Origin: an uncultured Eubacteriales bacterium
GTDB taxonomy: Bacteria > Bacillota > Clostridia > Lachnospirales > Lachnospiraceae
Reading direction: 5' to 3'
Assembly: GCA_949292795.1 (NCBI GenBank)
Contig: CASFBR010000015.1
Coordinates: forward strand, 1 to 41,382
Length of the DNA: 41,382 nucleotides
Part shown: positions 17,626-24,853 of the stretch, piece by piece
How positions within the stretch are numbered: the stretch's first letter is position 1
How the letters are laid out: each line of letters begins with the position of its first letter
The notes under the pieces: generated by a model
Seen by the model: the letters and a program-made list of their open reading frames with translations, nothing else
Told to the model about the DNA's origin: nothing
The model's database searches: none
Position numbers and translations under genes: made by a program

Positions 17626-20600
17626 ATGAGCCAGGTGAAAAGAATTTATGTCGAGAAGAAACCCGACTATGCCGTTGCCGCCCAGGAATTGCAGGAAAAT
17701 ATCCGTGATTACCTTGGAATTGACGGCGTTGAGAGCGTACGCGTGCTGATCCGCTATGATATACAAAATATTTCCGATGAGACTTACGAAACGGCAAAGG
17801 TGACGATCTTTTCCGAGCCGCCGGTAGATATGCTCTACGAGGAAAGCCTGCCGCTAAAGGACGGCGAGAAGCATTTTTCCGTAGAAGCGCTCCCGGGACA
17901 GTTTGACCAGCGGGCCGACTCGGCGATGCAGTGCGTGAAGCTGCTCAGCGAGGACGAGGAGCCGGTTATTAAATCGGCAACGACCTACCTGATCGGCGGA
18001 AGCTTTTCGGACGAGGATTTTTCCAAGATCAAGGCCTTTTGTATTAATCCGGTCGATTCCCGTGAAAATAATGATCCAAAGCCGGAAACCCTTGTGACCG
18101 AATATGAGGAGCCGGCAGATGTTAAAATTTTTGACGGCTTCAGAAAGATGGATGAGGCGGCGCTTAAATCGCTGTATCTGTCTTTAAATCTGGCGATGAC
18201 ATTTAAGGATTTCCAGTTTATCCAGACCTATTTCGCAGAAGAGGAAAAACGCGACCCGTCCATGACGGAGATACGGGTACTGGATACATACTGGTCGGAT
18301 CACTGCCGCCATACGACCTTCCAGACGGAGCTTAAAAACATCCGTTTTGAGGACGGCGATTATAAGCAGGTGGAAGAGGCAACCTATCTTGAATATAAGA
18401 AAGCACACGATGAAATTTTTGCAGGCCGCGACGATAAATATGTCTGCCTGATGGATATTGCGCTGATGGCTATGCGCAAGCTGAAAAAAGCCGGGAAGCT
18501 TGAAGATATGGAGCAGTCCGACGAGATTAATGCATGCAGCATCGTTGTTCCGGTAGAAATCGACGGAAAAACAGAAGAGTGGCTGATTAGCTTTAAAAAT
18601 GAGACACATAATCATCCGACGGAGATCGAGCCCTTCGGCGGTGCGGCGACCTGTCTTGGGGGCGCTATCCGTGACCCGCTGTCCGGACGTTCCTATGTAT
18701 ATCAGGCAATGCGCGTGACCGGTGCGGCAGACCCGACGGTTTCCTTAAAAGATACCCTTGAGGGCAAGCTTCCGCAGAGAAAGATCGTGACCGGCGCCGC
18801 AAAAGGTTACAGCTCTTACGGCAACCAGATCGGTCTTGCCACAGGACTTGTCAATGAAATCTACCATCCCAATTATGTGGCCAAGCGTATGGAGATCGGT
18901 GCAGTGATGGGCGCAGCGCCCAGACGCAATGTCATTCGTGAAAACAGTGATCCGGGTGATATTATTATTTTACTCGGCGGACGTACCGGGCGCGATGGCT
19001 GCGGCGGCGCAACCGGTTCATCCAAAGCACATACAGTGACATCCATTGACACATGCGGAGCGGAGGTACAGAAGGGCAATGCGCCGACCGAGCGTAAGTT
19101 ACAGCGCCTTTTCCGCAATCCGAAGGTCAGCCGGCTGATCAAAAAGTGTAATGACTTTGGCGCCGGCGGTGTATCCGTAGCAATCGGAGAACTTGCGGAT
19201 GGCTTAAACATCGACCTGGACAAGGTGCCGAAAAAATATGCCGGACTGGACGGTACGGAGCTGGCGATTTCTGAATCCCAGGAACGCATGGCCGTTGTGA
19301 TCGACCCGAAAGATGTCGGGCAGTTTCTTGCTTATGCGGATGAGGAAAACCTTGAGGCCGTCTGCGTGGCTGTTGTTACAGAAAGCCCGCGCCTTGTAAT
19401 GTCCTGGAGAGGTAAGGAGATCGTCAATATTTCCAGAGCCTTTTTAAATACAAATGGTGCACATCAGGAAACGGATGTCGTTGTAGCGGTGCCATCAAGA
19501 AGTGACAGCTATTTTGAAAAGAAGAAATGCCTCGATGATCTGCATCAGGCATGGCTTGACAATCTTTCAGACTTAAATGTCTGCTCTCAAAAGGGTCTGG
19601 TGGAAATGTTTGACAGCTCCATCGGTGCTGCATCCGTATATATGCCTTACGGCGGCAAATATCAGCTGACACCGGTGCAGACGATGGTTGCCAAGCTTCC
19701 GGTGCTTCACGGCCGCACAGAGACTGTGACGATGATGAGCTATGGCTATGACCCGTACTTATCTTCCTGGAGCCCGTATCACGGTGCAGTCTATGCGGTT
19801 GTGGAATCTGTGGCAAAGATTGTAGCCGCAGGCGGTGATTATTCAAAGATCCGCTTTACCTTCCAGGAGTATTTTGAGCGTCTTGGTGTAGACCCCAAGC
19901 GCTGGGGCGTTCCGTTTGCCGCTTTGCTTGGCGCTTACAACGCACAGATGGGCTTCGGCCTGCCTTCCATCGGCGGTAAAGACTCCATGTCCGGAAGCTT
20001 TAATGATATTGATGTTCCGCCGACGCTTGTATCGTTTGCGGTGGATGTCGCAAAACATTCACAGGTGATCACGCCGGAGCTTAAAGGCGCCGGTAATGCA
20101 CTTGCATTTTTATCCATCGACCGCGATGAAAATGATCTGCCGGTTTATGATAAAGTTATGGCACTGTACCGTACCGTCCATGAGCTGATCGCACGCAAAG
20201 AGGTCATTTCCGCGTATGCGGTTGGTCACGGAGGTATTGCGGCGGCTGTAAGTAAAATGGCGTTTGGCAATAAGCTTGGTGTTTCCCTGGATTCAAAGGT
20301 GCCGGCAGATATGCTGTTTGCACCGTCCTATGGCAGCCTTGTTGTTGAAGTTGCCCCGGGCTGCGCGGCAGACGTGACCGCAGCGATGGAAAATGCCAGA
20401 CTTGAGAAAAATCTCGTATGGCTTGGACAGACTACGCAGGAGCCTGCGTTTGTATATGGTCTGACACGGGTGACGATGGAGGAAGCCTTAAGCGCATGGA
20501 CGCGCCCTCTGGAAAAAGTATTCCCGACCCGTTCCGGTGTGGAGGAAAAGACGATCGATACACCGCTGTATACCGGCGGAAGTGTTTATGTGTGCAGGCA

Positions 20601-21408
20601 TAAGGTTGCCAGACCGAACGTATTTATTCCGGTGTTCCCGGGAACAAACTGCGAATACGATACATTAAAGGCGTTTGAGCGGGCCGGTGCGGATGTGCAG
20701 ACGTGCGTCTTTAAAAATCTTGATGCCAGAGGCATCCGTGAATCGGTGGAGGCTTTTGAAAAGGGCATCAGCCAGGCTCAGATTCTTATGTTCCCCGGCG
20801 GCTTTTCAGCCGGTGATGAACCGGACGGCTCCGGTAAGTTTATCGCTACGGCATTTAGAAATGAGCGCATCCGCGAGGCTGTGATGAAGCTTTTAAATGA
20901 GCGTGACGGACTGGCGCTTGGTATCTGCAATGGTTTCCAGGCTTTGATTAAGCTCGGGCTTGTGCCTTACGGCAAAATAACCGCACAAAAAGAGGATTCC
21001 CCGACGCTGACGACCAACCATATCGGACGTCATATTTCAAAGATTGTCTATACAAAGGTCGTTTCCAATAAATCGCCATGGCTTTCAAAAGCACAGGTGG
21101 GCGGCGTTTACGCGATTCCGGCATCTCATGGCGAGGGCCGTTTTGTAGCCAGTGACGACTGGATCAAAAAACTCTTTGAGAGCGGCTGTGTGGCGACACA
21201 GTATGTGGATGTGGATGGTCATCCGACAATGGATGAGGATTTCAATCCCAACGGCTCTTATTATGCGATCGAAGGTATTACAAGCATGGATGGACGCGTT
21301 CTTGGAAAGATGGCCCATTCTGAACGTATCGGCGAGGCTGTGGCTATGAACATTACCGGTGATCAGAATCAGATGATCTTTGAATCTGGTGTGGAATATT
21401 TCAAATAA
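17626..21408 (+). CDS. purL: Phosphoribosylformylglycinamidine synthase, single-chain
   Basis: A 1260-aa enzyme for the fourth step of purine synthesis: FGAR plus glutamine plus ATP gives FGAM. A PurS-like N-terminus (about 1-90) is followed by the ATP-binding core with TYWSDHCRHTTFQTEL (near 220) and FGAGGVSVAIGELADGLN, a second AIRS-like half with GLPSIGGKDSMSGSFNDI, and a C-terminal glutaminase from about 995. The glutaminase has PGTNCEYDTLKAFERAG, the nucleophile Cys in LGICNGFQALIKLG (near 1099), and the His/Glu of SHGEGRF. It fuses what B. subtilis splits into PurS, PurQ and PurL. GGAGG precedes the ATG. No other pur genes are nearby. Confidence 0.97.
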   Translation: MSQVKRIYVEKKPDYAVAAQELQENIRDYLGIDGVESVRVLIRYDIQNISDETYETAKVTIFSEPPVDMLYEESLPLKDGEKHFSVEALPGQFDQRADSAMQCVKLLSEDEEPVIKSATTYLIGGSFSDEDFSKIKAFCINPVDSRENNDPKPETLVTEYEEPADVKIFDGFRKMDEAALKSLYLSLNLAMTFKDFQFIQTYFAEEEKRDPSMTEIRVLDTYWSDHCRHTTFQTELKNIRFEDGDYKQVEEATYLEYKKAHDEIFAGRDDKYVCLMDIALMAMRKLKKAGKLEDMEQSDEINACSIVVPVEIDGKTEEWLISFKNETHNHPTEIEPFGGAATCLGGAIRDPLSGRSYVYQAMRVTGAADPTVSLKDTLEGKLPQRKIVTGAAKGYSSYGNQIGLATGLVNEIYHPNYVAKRMEIGAVMGAAPRRNVIRENSDPGDIIILLGGRTGRDGCGGATGSSKAHTVTSIDTCGAEVQKGNAPTERKLQRLFRNPKVSRLIKKCNDFGAGGVSVAIGELADGLNIDLDKVPKKYAGLDGTELAISESQERMAVVIDPKDVGQFLAYADEENLEAVCVAVVTESPRLVMSWRGKEIVNISRAFLNTNGAHQETDVVVAVPSRSDSYFEKKKCLDDLHQAWLDNLSDLNVCSQKGLVEMFDSSIGAASVYMPYGGKYQLTPVQTMVAKLPVLHGRTETVTMMSYGYDPYLSSWSPYHGAVYAVVESVAKIVAAGGDYSKIRFTFQEYFERLGVDPKRWGVPFAALLGAYNAQMGFGLPSIGGKDSMSGSFNDIDVPPTLVSFAVDVAKHSQVITPELKGAGNALAFLSIDRDENDLPVYDKVMALYRTVHELIARKEVISAYAVGHGGIAAAVSKMAFGNKLGVSLDSKVPADMLFAPSYGSLVVEVAPGCAADVTAAMENARLEKNLVWLGQTTQEPAFVYGLTRVTMEEALSAWTRPLEKVFPTRSGVEEKTIDTPLYTGGSVYVCRHKVARPNVFIPVFPGTNCEYDTLKAFERAGADVQTCVFKNLDARGIRESVEAFEKGISQAQILMFPGGFSAGDEPDGSGKFIATAFRNERIREAVMKLLNERDGLALGICNGFQALIKLGLVPYGKITAQKEDSPTLTTNHIGRHISKIVYTKVVSNKSPWLSKAQVGGVYAIPASHGEGRFVASDDWIKKLFESGCVATQYVDVDGHPTMDEDFNPNGSYYAIEGITSMDGRVLGKMAHSERIGEAVAMNITGDQNQMIFESGVEYFK

Positions 21409-21435
21409 AACAGGTAATTCAAATAAAACAGGTAA
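21400..21435 (+). repeat. 18-bp tandem duplication of the purL 3' end
   Basis: TTCAAATAAAACAGGTAA occurs at 21400-21417, where it includes the last two codons and the stop of purL, and again immediately at 21418-21435 without a mismatch. Confidence 0.95.
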
Positions 21436-21441
21436 AATGGG

Positions 21442-21484
21442 ACTGCCATATCAAACATATACTGCTTGGTATGGCAGTTTTTTT
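21442..21484 (+). terminator. Intrinsic terminator of purL
   Basis: ACTGCCATATCAA pairs with TTGGTATGGCAGT over 13 positions (one wobble) and is followed by a run of about eight T residues. Confidence 0.9.
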
Positions 21485-21584
21485 CGGGATATTCATTGCC
21501 CAGCCGGTCAGTGATGCGCTGGCATTAATCCTTTCTGTTATTTTAGTTGCCTGCGAGCACCGTAAGTTGCTGCATCAGGCATAA
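21480..21584 (+). pseudogene. C-terminal remnant of a MATE-type transporter
   Basis: Starting within the terminator T-run, a frame reads FFGIFIAQPVSDALALILSV, then ILVACEHRKLLHQA and a stop. The AQPVSD-ALALILS pattern followed by a basic tail resembles the last helix and C-terminus of MATE/DinF efflux proteins. Nothing upstream encodes the other eleven helices, and no start is present. I read it as the stub of a deleted gene; the family assignment rests on one helix. Confidence 0.45.
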
Positions 21585-21790
21585 GTTCGCAGAGCTTCAT
21601 TTGCGTGTATCTTCATTTTATTTTCCGGGGCTGCTGCGGCAGCCCTGGAAAATATTTAACTGATTATTCAGACAATATAATAATAAATACAATAAAAAGA
21701 GAAAATAATACATATAAAATATATATAATAAGAAAAAATGTGTACAAATAGAATAATGCGAGTAAAAAATAAAAATTTTTGAAAATTGTG

Positions 21791-21819
21791 TTGACATTTA
21801 CGGGGCGGTGAGGTATAAT
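21791..21819 (+). promoter_or_regulatory. Perfect consensus promoter of ncRNA copy 1
   Basis: TTGACA at 21791-21796 and TATAAT at 21814-21819 with a 17-base spacer. The upstream 60 bases are A/T tracts resembling an UP element. This predicts very strong constitutive transcription starting near 21826. Confidence 0.9.
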
Positions 21820-21825
21820 AAAATC

Positions 21826-22480
21826 ATCAAAAGAGAACAGACAAATTTCTAAATCGCGTTGGATTTGGAAAGGCGTTGAAGGAGGAGATTCCATTGAAAA
21901 AGTAGTTAAGTGGTAGATATGATATTCGTAAAACGATAGCTGCTTGAAAGATAAGTTCTCCGTCATGGATTTATCTTAGGTAAGAAAATCAAAATTCCTA
22001 CCGTACACACTGAGCAATATCCATTTTACAACATATGATAGCTGTCACAGGGGTATCGGTTTTATAAGGCCAGACGATTAAAGAACATCATAACTGTTGG
22101 AGAAGTTTTATAAAACAGTCATGATCGGTTGAACAGATAGCCGGATTTCATACAGATGATACAGCTTATAGTTGTAGATGCTGAAGTGATTTTCAAAGGT
22201 TTTATCGTTTAAGGATAGTGATAAATTTTATAAATTCACAGCAGCAGAAGTTATTAAGAAAGATCAGGATGTCAGATAGTCGGAAGGTCAGAAAGAAAAG
22301 TGAATATATTATATACTGACGAGAAAGGTATATAAACGAGGGAAAATTGAATAAAGAAAACTGGATGAAAAATCTGAATCAAAATTTTTAGAAGAGGTAA
22401 TTGTAAATGATTGAACCAGTTCAGCAGTGAAGAGATCGTTCTTTGATACACGCAATGTTCAGGAGCGGTCTCTTCGTTTT
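21826..22480 (+). ncRNA. Large structured non-coding RNA, copy 1 (about 655 nt)
   Basis: No convincing protein frame exists between the promoter and the terminator at 22429-22480. The 5' part folds TTTCTAAATC/GATTTGGAAA (21846-21871, ten pairs). Then come GGAGGAGATTCCATTGAA (21881), a stem ATCAT-A-ACTGTT/AACAGT-C-ATGAT (22087-22125), TTTATC/GATAAA around 22202-22227, the block TCGGAAGGTCAG with ATATACTGACGAGAAAGGTA (about 22280-22330), and a 39-base block (22405-22443) identical to copy 2. The blocks occur in the same order in copy 2 at 22607. Size and expression signals resemble large ornate bacterial RNAs such as ROOL or GOLLD, but family membership is untested. Confidence 0.75.
22429..22480 (+). 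terminator. Terminator of ncRNA copy 1
   Basis: GAAGAGATCGTTC (22429-22441) pairs with GAGCGGTCTCTTC (22463-22475) over 13 positions with wobbles, followed by GTTTTG. The loop differs from that of copy 2 while the stem is kept. Confidence 0.9.
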
Positions 22481-22571
22481 GTGTAGAAAAAACAAAAAAA
22501 GGATAATTAAAAGATAAAAAGCGATATATAAAAAAGATAACAAAAAATAAATATAAAAATTAAAAATTGTA

Positions 22572-22600
22572 TTGACATTTTAGCAGGATACGTTTATAAT
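22572..22600 (+). promoter_or_regulatory. Perfect consensus promoter of ncRNA copy 2
   Basis: TTGACA at 22572-22577 and TATAAT at 22595-22600, again with a 17-base spacer, in an A/T-rich context (AAAATTGTATTGACATTT) nearly the same as for copy 1. Confidence 0.9.
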
Positions 22601-22606
22601 AAAACC

Positions 22607-23206
22607 ATCAAAAGAAAGTAACTTCTTTTAAAGAAAGCAGATTTAAAAGAAGGACAAAGGAGGAGATACCATTGAAGTAAAAATATCGTGATCGTTATCA
22701 AAAGAGAGGCTTTCCGCTTACAGACATAGATTCATCGGAAGAATCTATCAGAGAAGATAAGGAAGTTTATAAGAGGATATATACAGCAGGATTGTTATAC
22801 CTGATTATAGAAGTTTTATCTGAAGCGGCAGGATGATCGGAAGATACGTCACAGGAAGAAATTAATATAGATGCTGTCCAAAGATAAGAAATAATAAAAG
22901 CTGCTGTCCCATTCCCGGAAGGGGACATCGCTCAGACAGCACTGAGGATAACGTTCATATTTCCAGAGGAAGCAGCAGTCGGAAATCATAAGAAAAAGCG
23001 AAAGATTATAGATTATCGGAAGGTCAGTGAGAAAAGCTGGTTATATACTGACGAGAAAGGTATATATCGATAGGAAAACTAAATAGAGAAAAAGAAACTT
23101 TACAACCGATTTTTTAAAGAGGTAAATGCAAATGATTGAACCAGTTCAGCAGTGAAGAGATCGTTCTTAAACACCGATGATGTTTTTGAGCGATCTCTTC
23201 TTTTTG
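22607..23206 (+). ncRNA. Large structured non-coding RNA, copy 2 (about 600 nt)
   Basis: The second, diverged member of the tandem pair. The 5' stem is CTTCTTTTAAA/TTTAAAAGAAG (22622-22652, eleven perfect pairs), with no sequence in common with the copy 1 stem but in the same place before GGAGGAGATACCATTGAA (22659). Other hairpins are TAGATTC-7-GAATCTA (22727-22747) and CTCAG-6-CTGAG (22931-22946). TCGGAAGGTCAG, TATACTGACGAGAAAGGTAT and the 39-base 3' block at 23130-23168 match copy 1. No credible protein frame is present. Kept pairing with changed bases is strong evidence for RNA-level function. Confidence 0.75.
23154..23206 (+). terminator. Terminator of ncRNA copy 2
   Basis: GAAGAGATCGTTC (23154-23166) pairs with GAGCGATCTCTTC (23188-23200), followed by TTTTT. 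A U-G pair of copy 1 is a U-A pair here. The reverse strand also offers an A-rich flank for the converging membrane-protein gene. Confidence 0.9.
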
Positions 23207-23223
23207 TCTGTCTGAAAAATTGT

Positions 23224-24522
23224 TTATGCCGGCGTATGCTCCGCCTTAGGCAGATAGATATGTAATTTGTCGATCCGGTTCTTTTCCATAGAATCGACGG
23301 TCAGCCGGATGCCGTCCGGGGTTTCGATAAATTCTCCGGTCGAGGGGATATGCTCAAGCTCGTTGATGACATGTCCGGCGATGGAATCATAGTCTTCCGA
23401 TTCAAAATCAGTCCCAAGGGCATCGTTAAGCTCATCCAGCTTGACTGAGCCATCGACAATATATTCGGTGTCATTGATTTTTTTGATCGTTTCTTCTTCC
23501 TCCTCGTCATACTCGTCACGGATGTCACCGACGATCTCTTCCAGAAGATTTTCCAGTGTAATCAGTCCGGAGGTGGCGCCGTATTCGTCCAGGACAATGG
23601 CGATATTGACGGACTGGGCTCTTAACTGGATCATCAGATCGGATGTTTTCTGATATTCATAAGTAAAAAAAGCCTCACGAAGATGCTCCTTAAGCACAAA
23701 GTCCTCCGGCCTTCCCTGATAGCAGAAAATATCCTTCAGATTGACGATACCGATGACGTTGTCCTTTGTGTCCTCATAAACCGGAATACGGGAATACTTT
23801 TCCTCGCGAAACAGGCGGATCAGCTCTTCATAGCCGGTGTCCGCGCTGGCAAATACGACGTCGATTCTGGGGACCATTACATCTTTAGCCAGGGAATCGC
23901 CGAAATCGACCACATTGGTGATCATCTCTTTTTCTTCGCTTTCAATAACGCCCTCCTCGTGGCTTACGTCAATGATCGTAAGCAGTTCATTCTCGGTCAT
24001 GGATTTCTTTTTCTTTTCCGGGTCCATGCCAAGTATATGCAGAAAGAAGCGGGAGAGTATATTCATTAAAAATATCAGCGGCGTCAGCACGACCGTCACA
24101 ATATACACAGGCTTGGAATAGCCCAGAGAAATCTTTTCCGCATTCATCGAGGCGACGGTCTTTGGAAGAATCTCTCCGAAAATGAGAATACCGACGGTTA
24201 ATATTCCGGTTGCAACACCGACGATACTTGCAGTGGCTGTTCCGGCGCCCATGGATGAGGCAATCTTTGTTGCAAATAATGTCGTCATGGAGGATGCGGT
24301 AAGATTGACGATATTGTTGCCAATCAGCACGGCTGTTAAAAGCTTTCCGGTATTATCCGTCAGCTTTTGCACAAGACGGGCCTTTTTACTGCCTTCGTCG
24401 CTCAATGTTTTGATTTTGATCTTGTTTACTGTTGTCAGAGCTGTTTCAGCAGATGAGAAAAATGCTGATAAACAGATGAGAATAAAAATAATAATAAGCT
24501 GCGTGACCGCGTCTGCGTCCAA
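23224..24522 (-). CDS. CNNM/HlyC/CorC-type membrane protein with CBS pair
   Basis: About 432 aa. An N-terminal DUF21 membrane domain of four helices carries the SAFFSSAETALTTVNKIKIK motif. A CBS-domain pair follows (VMVPRIDVVFASADTGYEEL; RIPVYEDTKDNVIGIVNLKD), then a CorC_HlyC C-terminal domain (DEYGATSGLITLENLLEEIV; VDGSVKLDELNDALG). Relatives are Mg2+/Co2+ or Na+ linked transporters, often misnamed haemolysins. I prefer the TTG start at 24522 because TAGGAG lies eight bases upstream; longer in-frame starts at 24579 (ATG) and 24594 have no ribosome binding site. It converges on the ncRNA pair. Confidence 0.9.
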   Translation of the reverse strand: MDADAVTQLIIIFILICLSAFFSSAETALTTVNKIKIKTLSDEGSKKARLVQKLTDNTGKLLTAVLIGNNIVNLTASSMTTLFATKIASSMGAGTATASIVGVATGILTVGILIFGEILPKTVASMNAEKISLGYSKPVYIVTVVLTPLIFLMNILSRFFLHILGMDPEKKKKSMTENELLTIIDVSHEEGVIESEEKEMITNVVDFGDSLAKDVMVPRIDVVFASADTGYEELIRLFREEKYSRIPVYEDTKDNVIGIVNLKDIFCYQGRPEDFVLKEHLREAFFTYEYQKTSDLMIQLRAQSVNIAIVLDEYGATSGLITLENLLEEIVGDIRDEYDEEEEETIKKINDTEYIVDGSVKLDELNDALGTDFESEDYDSIAGHVINELEHIPSTGEFIETPDGIRLTVDSMEKNRIDKLHIYLPKAEHTPA

Positions 24523-24853
24523 AAAATCATCTCCTAAATCATAAAATAGCGTTTCATTATAAAAGACAACAGGTTCCATTATAAAAAACAACAATAAGAA
24601 GCACTTTTAATTGTAGCCGATGTCCATGAAGGTGTCAATGGCCGAAATAAAGTCGTCCCTGTGTAGTATTTTCTTTTGTAATATGTTTCATGATATAAAA
24701 AAATTACAAAAAATATATGAAAAATTATAGAAAAATGTTGAAAAAATGAGATAATAATACATATCAAGGTAATCGTTTATGCAGCCTGCCCGGCGGGCTG
24801 CCGTATGCCGGTGCGTTTTTGCCGGCGGTTTTATTCCAGGGGAGGAAACAAAA

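Follow-up and report, generated by a model that had tools for sequence, protein, structure and literature searches.

Several described systems resemble, in part, the RNAs reported here. ROOL, GOLLD and OLE are large, structured RNAs whose functions are poorly understood, according to the sections of PMC12286853 on which we draw. In sponge RNAs of the CsrB/RsmZ type, repeated motifs resembling Shine-Dalgarno (SD) sequences could titrate a regulator of translation (for CsrB, a section of PMC7509114). The same section describes 5' elements of the STAB-SD type, in which 30S subunits can be recruited, and the RNA protected, by an SD that lacks a functional start codon. The minigenes of axe-txe, ycbK and LEE4, in the part of PMC8708949 used here, consist of a strong SD, 2-7 codons and a stop. 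In this work, we analyzed a stretch of 41,382 nucleotides from an uncultured bacterium of the Lachnospiraceae (contig CASFBR010000015.1 of assembly GCA_949292795.1; the window, at its full length), which contains a tandem pair of large RNAs, W1 and W2, that can be compared with each of these systems. We tentatively read W1, W2 and their relatives as ribosome-loading RNAs, which would hold ribosomes rather than make protein. This seems to be the simplest reading, because the RNAs have SDs, stops that follow almost immediately, a packing distance within arrays and a mini open reading frame (mini-ORF) set against the terminator.

The comparison with the described systems concerns the whole family of RNAs to which W1 and W2 belong. 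Unlike ROOL, GOLLD and OLE, this RNA family has a loose modular layout with SD mini-ORFs and no match in Rfam, and a search of the phage and plasmid collections, made with W1 only, gave no match. As for multiple SD-like repeats per RNA, the property by which CsrB is judged, relatives of the pair have up to 11 modules, and W1 and W2 have two SD sites each. In contrast to CsrB and RsmZ, the modules carry in-frame stops, and csrA is absent from the window's genome. CsrA was considered as the target of a sponge and rejected: there are 0 matches to it in the window's genome or in a second genome of the genus (G003; G and L numbers denote genomes and loci), and csrA is under-represented among genomes matching the strict module pattern (19/58 versus 134/241 of the others; Fisher p 0.002). 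The minigenes in the cited part of PMC8708949 belong to leaders and affect the gene downstream of them in cis, whereas those of the RNA family form arrays in RNAs that have a promoter and a terminator to themselves, with the final minigene ending on the terminator. The family differs from STAB-SD elements in its repeated, spaced arrays and in the conserved TACRGWCC part of its modules.

A sequence-only reading of the window had proposed a tandem pair of large, structured RNAs with perfect promoters behind A-tracts, collinear shared blocks, terminators and folded 5' ends, and these elements all stood up to analysis. Both promoters have the form TTGACA-17-TATAAT, agree with the consensus at 12/12 positions with a 17-nt spacer, and are preceded by A-tracts. 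From these promoters, the proposed strong expression of the pair is a prediction. When W1 and W2 are compared as direct repeats, they are collinear, at distances of 725-781 nt, and share, in order, the promoter and start block, AAGGAGGAGATnCCATTGAA, the TCGGAAGGTCAG block, the TTATATACTGACGAGAAAGGTATATA block and a 99-nt 3' block, which has 83% identity and contains the 39 identical bases already seen. Terminator stems were confirmed at the 3' end of both units. Each transcript folds better than 20/20 dinucleotide shuffles (z -3.70 for W1 and -3.53 for W2). The 5' hairpins of W1 and W2 differ in sequence yet pair, and covariation supports this fold across the eight genus units, in which 79.8% of cells pair; the covariation of 0.371 compares with 0.196 (sd 0.045) for shuffled alignments, is reached by 0/500 shuffles and exceeds the maximum of 0.184 obtained by sliding. 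Other measures are weaker, in that the number of doubly changed pairs (7/13) is reached by 10/500 shuffles and the number of pair types by 69/500.

The earlier impression that no frame looks like a protein holds insofar as positions 21409-23224 have no plus-strand ORF of >=60 amino acids (a single 100-codon ORF lies on the minus strand at 21664-21966), but it overlooked a 7-codon frame in the 39-base block and frames of 2 to 3 codons behind the 5' SD. The 39-base block holds an SD site and the codons ATG-ATT-GAA-CCA-GTT-CAG-CAG-TGA, whose stop lies against the terminator; the distance from stop to stem is 5 nt in both W1 and W2. All eight genus units keep ATG ATT GAA CCA GTT CAG CAR TGA, with a single change (CAG to CAA in G2b) that is synonymous. 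In these units, the SD of this last frame is AAAGAGG or AAGAGG, and the spacer of 7-9 nt varies in both length and letters. At the 5' end, an AAGGAGG SD followed by TTG is found in 8/8 units; a stop follows 1-3 codons later, and the stops differ between units. The 5' and last frames of W1 and W2 fit the minigene layout, i.e., SD, start, few codons and in-frame stop. The minigene bar of phage lambda is a further example of this layout. A purely noncoding layout was thus not borne out, since W1 and W2 carry elements made of an SD and a mini-ORF, and the last mini-ORF is codon-conserved across genera in the wider family.

The way to this wider family was opened by a third unit in the window's genome (contig C162, locus L022). 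BLAST with the third unit gave matches in 35/250 genomes of the bacterial family, many of them restricted to the promoter or to a dispersed repeat behind the terminator. This intergenic repeat (L022:2045-2108, query 346-409) has hits on contig C46 of the window's genome (G000) and in G241, G130, G166, G031, G006 and G244. The pattern RRGGTACRGWCCAMYG occurs in 58/299 family genomes and, among the matches listed, at 68 places versus 13 for a reversed control; units were seen in many genera among the loci listed for it. A position matrix found 119 modules, with <=1 hit in reversed sequence. Three of the 119 are apparently matches in protein genes (L089, L099 and L106), and these are excluded from the 116 modules used below. 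A module consists of an SD, TACRGWCCA, a start or pseudo-start triplet and an in-frame stop. Its consensus is GAAAGAGAGGTACRGWCCA, followed by the triplet (ATG 50, CCG 25, CCA 20, AAG 8, TTG 7, others 9), a few codons and the stop. Most units of the family combine such modules with a last mini-ORF that ends at the terminator stem.

The stops of the modules are predominantly in frame. Within <=7 triplets, an in-frame stop is present in 54/58 modules with ATG, GTG or TTG (versus 27 in frame +1 and 17 in frame +2), in 41/43 with CCG or CCA (versus 13 and 21) and in 12/15 of the others (versus 2 and 7). Because the matrix spans the usual stop position, the fair test of frame uses the 56 modules that lack a stop at the consensus position; 47 of these stop in frame within <=7 triplets, versus 28 and 16 in the other frames. 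Among the short modules, 38/79 end in a Thr codon and 65/79 use UAA, features that the cited part of PMC8708949 links to peptidyl-tRNA release. Modules also tend to be regularly spaced. Neighboring modules (n=101) are 50-58 nt apart in 42 cases, 59-73 nt in 17 and <50 nt in 2, and 19 loci show the mode, while the 32-nt motif itself would permit a spacing of <50 nt. A 30S initiation complex covers ~54 nt of mRNA. When paired with a 16S rRNA 3' end taken from another family genome (no 16S was found in the window's genome), the 5' elements of W1 and W2 and four typed modules have energies of -18.6 to -24.6 kcal/mol, and the last SD of W1 has -10.0 kcal/mol.

The last mini-ORF was analyzed in 73 units, of which 63 come from loci and 10 were added by hand (W1, W2, L058, L143 and six genus units); the window, L058 and L143 fell below the matrix cut-off. 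The set includes 17 loci from the BLAST with the third unit. It leaves out L089, L099, L106, L126, the repeat fetches L090, L091, L093, L100, L114, L119 and L135-L138, and L132/L139, the last at the cost of one real unit (G507). A scan whose pattern imposes MKL and MIEP was left unused for claims about conservation. A last mini-ORF at the terminator, with SD, start and a stop located -2 to +6 nt from the stem, is present in 55/73 units (the script gave 56, of which L118 is spurious), and a few of the accepted calls are weak, e.g., L086. The script finds no last frame in 17/73 units, two of which (L048 and L050) have one by eye. Counted per terminator, a last frame occurs at 58/101, versus 126/2020 (6%) after the letters of the 60 bases upstream were shuffled. 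Accepted frames have 4-14 codons, mainly 5-7. Their peptides fall into classes, namely MIEPVQQ/MIEPVH/MIEPTQ/MIEPAM, MD(S,N,E,A)(I,E,V)x and MKLxxxx, within which synonymous changes are seen: Ile ATT/ATA, Glu GAA/GAG and Pro CCA/CCG in MIEP peptides, Asp GAT/GAC, Ser AGT/AGC/TCA and Val GTT/GTC in MDS peptides, and Leu CTT/TTA/CTA/CTG in MKL peptides. An exception is formed by the g187 units, whose frame enters the terminator loop (L111, L118 and L120).

If these elements act as we tentatively propose, each SD would recruit 30S subunits or 70S ribosomes to the RNA, and the tiny frames, or the missing start codons in about half of the family's modules, would keep these ribosomes from making protein. 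Spacing close to one 30S footprint would let ribosomes pack in the arrays of relatives, and at the 3' end a ribosome would park between the last SD and the terminator. Held by ribosomes at both ends (W1 and W2) or along its length (arrays), the RNA would be protected and, if abundant, would withhold 30S subunits from other mRNAs. Some precedent exists, as SDs without start codons can stabilize RNAs, presumably via 30S binding (the cited section of PMC7509114). According to the cited part of PMC8708949, occupancy of mini-ORFs can protect leaders, strong SDs favor re-initiation, and UAA with certain last codons, including Thr, favors release of peptidyl-tRNA. Binding of ribosomes is, in our inference, the most likely step of this mechanism, and effects in trans on translation are the least certain. 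It is doubtful whether the mechanism extends to its fullest form, an RNA class that holds ribosomes by means of tandem SD minigenes one 30S footprint apart together with a terminator-parking mini-ORF, so that 30S subunits would be stored or withheld by transcription and not by a hibernation protein.

It is important to emphasize that a number of observations weigh against ribosome loading. In W1 and W2, just two SD sites are present per RNA, separated by about 460-510 nt, and since the pair holds no array, the packing argument rests on its relatives. Among the relatives, some arrays are tandem duplications (L082, L095, L101 and L102), and the number of independent cases of the preferred spacing is therefore below 42. 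By the module matrix (cut-off 13), the 5' elements of W1 and W2 score 2.8 and 7.5, and the two belong to the 7/73 units without a module at the cut-off; G1a, G2a, G3a, G3b and L058 are likewise below 13, and the paralogous G1b and G2b score 18.6. Ribosome loading also assigns no function to the long middle part of W1 and W2, which is variable. As to the modules, 58/116 lack a start codon, and for those that have one, the contrast between frames is modest when only <=4 triplets are allowed (32 versus 23 in frame +1 and 6 in frame +2). The TACRGWCC part is not explained by pairing with 16S rRNA. The idea that complementarity to 16S extends beyond the SD was rejected: the overall energy is -18.71 kcal/mol versus -17.62 kcal/mol with the downstream part shuffled, with -17.97 versus -16.26 for start modules and no effect for CCG/CCA modules (-19.79 versus -19.43). 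Finally, the Thr-UAA minigene studied in PMC8708949 was, in the part cited, non-toxic and acted in cis.

The TACRGWCC part is relevant to the idea of a sponge, which we consider fairly unlikely. In such an RNA, the modules would mimic the translation-start regions of mRNAs (AGGTACRGWCCATG-like) and titrate an RNA-binding translational repressor, following the logic of CsrB with another protein. The near-identity of the repeated modules, the conservation of GGTACRGWCC beyond the SD, which pairing with 16S explains poorly, the half of the modules without a start codon and the separate conserved hairpin loop are all in line with a sponge. A sponge for a putative protein fits TACRGWCC better than ribosome loading does, but it does not fit the stops, because it needs neither in-frame stops nor last peptides with conserved codons. 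Moreover, the pattern hits in protein genes at L089, L099 and L106 look coincidental, and the hit at L126 possibly marks a gene start that carries the motif, although no systematic search of mRNA start regions was made. The codon conservation raises the question of whether the last mini-ORF is itself the product, i.e., whether these are mRNAs for peptides of 5-8 residues (MIEPVQQ, MDSIV, MKLLEIH) with an upstream part that controls translation. We regard this as unlikely. It would account for peptide classes that are kept through synonymous changes across genera, for an SD spacing of 7-9 nt that is kept while the spacer letters change and for a related class with a longer frame, MDNxxE..QYVSGxA.. 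(by eye). However, the peptides differ widely between classes and have no signal sequence, and the frame of the g187 class runs into the terminator loop. In addition, 8/9 MIEPVQQ copies do not differ even at third positions, which means that constraint on the RNA or recent descent also acts.

It is quite improbable, in our judgment, that these are classical large structured RNAs, forming an assembly like that of ROOL or GOLLD, with incidental SDs and short frames. Their size, z-scores and covarying hairpins, the absence of a protein and the long module-free middle of W1 and W2 would agree with such RNAs, but there is no Rfam match, unit length and layout vary strongly, and the in-frame stops and codon conservation point to translation. 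Still less credence, and in fact very little, can be given to a cis-acting leader or attenuator of the next gene, in which the mini-ORF would control readthrough of the terminator. The stop does sit on the terminator stem, and several units precede a similar same-strand gene for an arginine-rich membrane protein. Yet in 32/61 units the strand of the next gene is the opposite one (by a crude ORF call in which some ORFs overlap the unit), and the CNNM gene that follows the pair in the window is convergent.

Some units, including W1 and W2, have a further conserved element, which under the ribosome-loading reading would be a separate binding site for a putative partner. The window block TATATACTGACGAGAAAGGTATATA forms a hairpin with an 11-base UGACGAGAAAG loop that is constant across the rows of the alignment save for its last base. 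Constancy of the loop is partly built in, because rows were picked by that loop or by a model derived from it; the variation in the stem is not. Over 28 distinct sequences, 91.5% of cells pair versus 54.8% in shuffles, cells with double changes number 74 versus 23.1, and covariation is 0.913 versus 0.227 (sd 0.037), each value being reached by 0/500 shuffles; the maximum covariation on sliding is 0.256. All 8/8 pairs show a double change, a measure that on its own is reached by 155/500 shuffles. The alignment leaves out L172 (a protein gene), L153 and L154 (genus repeats), L180-L189 and chance matches in L043 and L044. W1 and W2 both match the resulting model, of which the window sequences are part. 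Since the model matches 39/299 family genomes, not every unit of the family carries the hairpin, and at least one match falls in a protein gene (L172). In the sample of the order, 6/246 genomes match, five of them in the family; the sixth (G444) was left uninspected. Of 30 hairpin loci, 18 have a last frame at the terminator by the script, two of them doubtful (L156 and L159). A search for an antisense role of the loop in one 7-kb stretch of rRNA from another genome gave no perfectly complementary run of >=8 nt.

The position of this loop differs between units. At L164, L185, L187 and L188, in units with MKLxxxx peptides, the transcription terminator has UGACGAGAAAG as its loop, and L187 has two units in tandem, like the window. 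In a second class of related large RNAs (L163, L166, L168, L171, L173, L174, L184 and L189), the hairpin is close to the promoter. In this class and in L052 and L086, where the hairpin was not seen, the SD AGGAGGCTTA is able to pair with a downstream TAAGCCT, a longer frame MDNxxE...QYVSGxA... is present, and CAATATGTnnGTGGTA lies opposite CATATTGA..TACCAC (all by eye).

BLAST with W1 against 98 genomes (the window's included) gave substantial matches in four members of the genus, and two other genomes (L007 and L008) match over 32-33 nt only. All four genus genomes have a pair of the W1/W2 type, which yields the eight units, and in their alignment the ends are conserved and the middle is variable. 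In the window, G001, G002 and G003, the pair is flanked by purL and a CNNM/CBS gene, a location that in G166 is occupied by one unit only. The window pair and L083 adjoin purine genes (purL and a gene reading like purC, respectively). An exact-string scan of genome contigs found 21 stretches, four of them in Scybalocola/Catenibacillus; the remaining 17, whose titles place them in other groups, were left aside uninspected. Carriers include Candidatus Scybalocola faecipullorum (L058) and Catenibacillus scindens DSM 106146 (L076), both Lachnospiraceae. TATAATAAAACCATCAAAAG-like starts, as in the promoter and start of W1, recur in units from other genera. On the basis of the hairpin, the last frame, the promoter start and synteny with relatives, the view that W1 and W2 are divergent members of a larger RNA family, mainly in Lachnospiraceae, is well supported. 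The features of the pair are collected in the table below.

Table. Elements of W1 and W2 and neighboring genes, in window coordinates
Feature	Position	Strand	Description or basis
W1 promoter	21740..21819	+	A-tract upstream region; TTGACA-17-TATAAT at 21791-21819
W1 transcript	21826..22478 (about)	+	start inferred from -10 box, end from terminator
W1 5' hairpin	21846..21871	+	arms 21846-21855 and 21862-21871; in minimum free energy and centroid structures; covariation over 8 units
W1 5' ribosome-binding element (predicted)	21879..21905	+	AAGGAGG, spacer, TTG AAA AAG TAG
W1 UGACGAGAAAG-loop hairpin	22308..22335	+	loop 22317-22327; covariation model
W1 last SD and mini-ORF MIEPVQQ*	22390..22430	+	GAGG 22394-22397; frame 22407-22430
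W1 terminator	22426..22480	+	stem begins at stop codon
W2 promoter	22530..22600	+	TTGACA-17-TATAAT at 22572-22600; upstream A-tracts
W2 transcript	22607..23206 (about)	+	start inferred
W2 5' hairpin	22622..22652	+	11 bp; folding and covariation
W2 5' ribosome-binding element (predicted)	22656..22680	+	AAAGGAGG, spacer, TTG AAG TAA
W2 UGACGAGAAAG-loop hairpin	23040..23067	+	covariation model
W2 last SD and mini-ORF MIEPVQQ*	23118..23155	+	frame 23132-23155
W2 terminator	23154..23206	+	repeat comparison and terminator scan
purL (FGAM synthase), upstream neighbor	17626..21408	+	Pfam, synteny
CNNM/CBS/CorC-type protein gene, convergent downstream neighbor	23224..24594	-	Pfam, synteny

Beyond the bacterial family, the module model matches 25/246 genomes in the sample of the order, 20 of which are in the family. 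The other five comprise convincing arrays (L129 and L113), partial ones (L130 and L133) and what looks like a protein start (L126). In the sample of the phylum, the 2/249 genomes that match, the window's own included, both belong to the family. Scans of viral sequences pointed to six contigs, of which one has its match inside a predicted ORF (L140) and four were set aside by eye (L079, L141, L142 and L144). The sixth (L143) is 5 kb long and has a genuine unit at its edge; because this unit sits beside an apparent radical-SAM gene found next to host units, the contig is probably host DNA.

Recurrent neighbors and sequence features were also observed. Units of several genera (L034, L038, L050, L103, L116, L121, L123 and L124) precede a membrane-protein gene with an arginine-rich start (RRRRRNQIAAY-like; by eye), and units of the hairpin class (L044, L046, L081, L092, L109 and L143) are convergent to a radical-SAM-like gene, so named from its sequence (CxLCPRxC start). 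Simple tandem repeats (GATCAAAA and AAAGTACC) are present in the spacers of L051 and L086, and a motif resembling TTYAYATAGAT recurs at variable places, e.g., in L043, L080, L088, L103 and L110 (by eye).

Whether the pair belongs to a known class of RNA had been left open, with ROOL, GOLLD, HEARO, OLE and raiA named as candidates. A scan of the window at gathering thresholds gave 0 hits to these or any other family in Rfam 15, and a scan of positions 21420-23260 at E<=10 gave four matches, all far below gathering scores. Among 15 loci of the family, the Rfam scan found only a ZTP riboswitch beside one unit, and a scan of 8 loci at E<=0.5 found none. The riboswitch, of the ZMP/ZTP type, is located ~170 bases upstream of the unit on the opposite strand (L043:1273-1356, minus strand). 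In view of the missing Rfam match and the covarying hairpins, the RNAs probably form a new class; the pair's family has many layouts and not a single ROOL-like fold. The family is apparently undescribed: literature searches for the 18-base module string and for combined terms found nothing, and occurrences of the 11-base loop string look unrelated, judging by titles. The part of PMC8040213 used here reports 3161 candidate RNAs, and fragments of the family may be among them, without the present interpretation.

The Lachnospiraceae rank with the most abundant bacterial families in the human gut, yet the RNAs described here, which come from this family, are unmatched in Rfam. If ribosome loading is true, they would represent RNA-based tuning of the pool of free ribosomes, and would offer natural arrays of minigenes for measuring initiation, drop-off and re-initiation. 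Even if they are sponges, a putative RNA-binding partner is suggested by both the module and the conserved hairpin loop.

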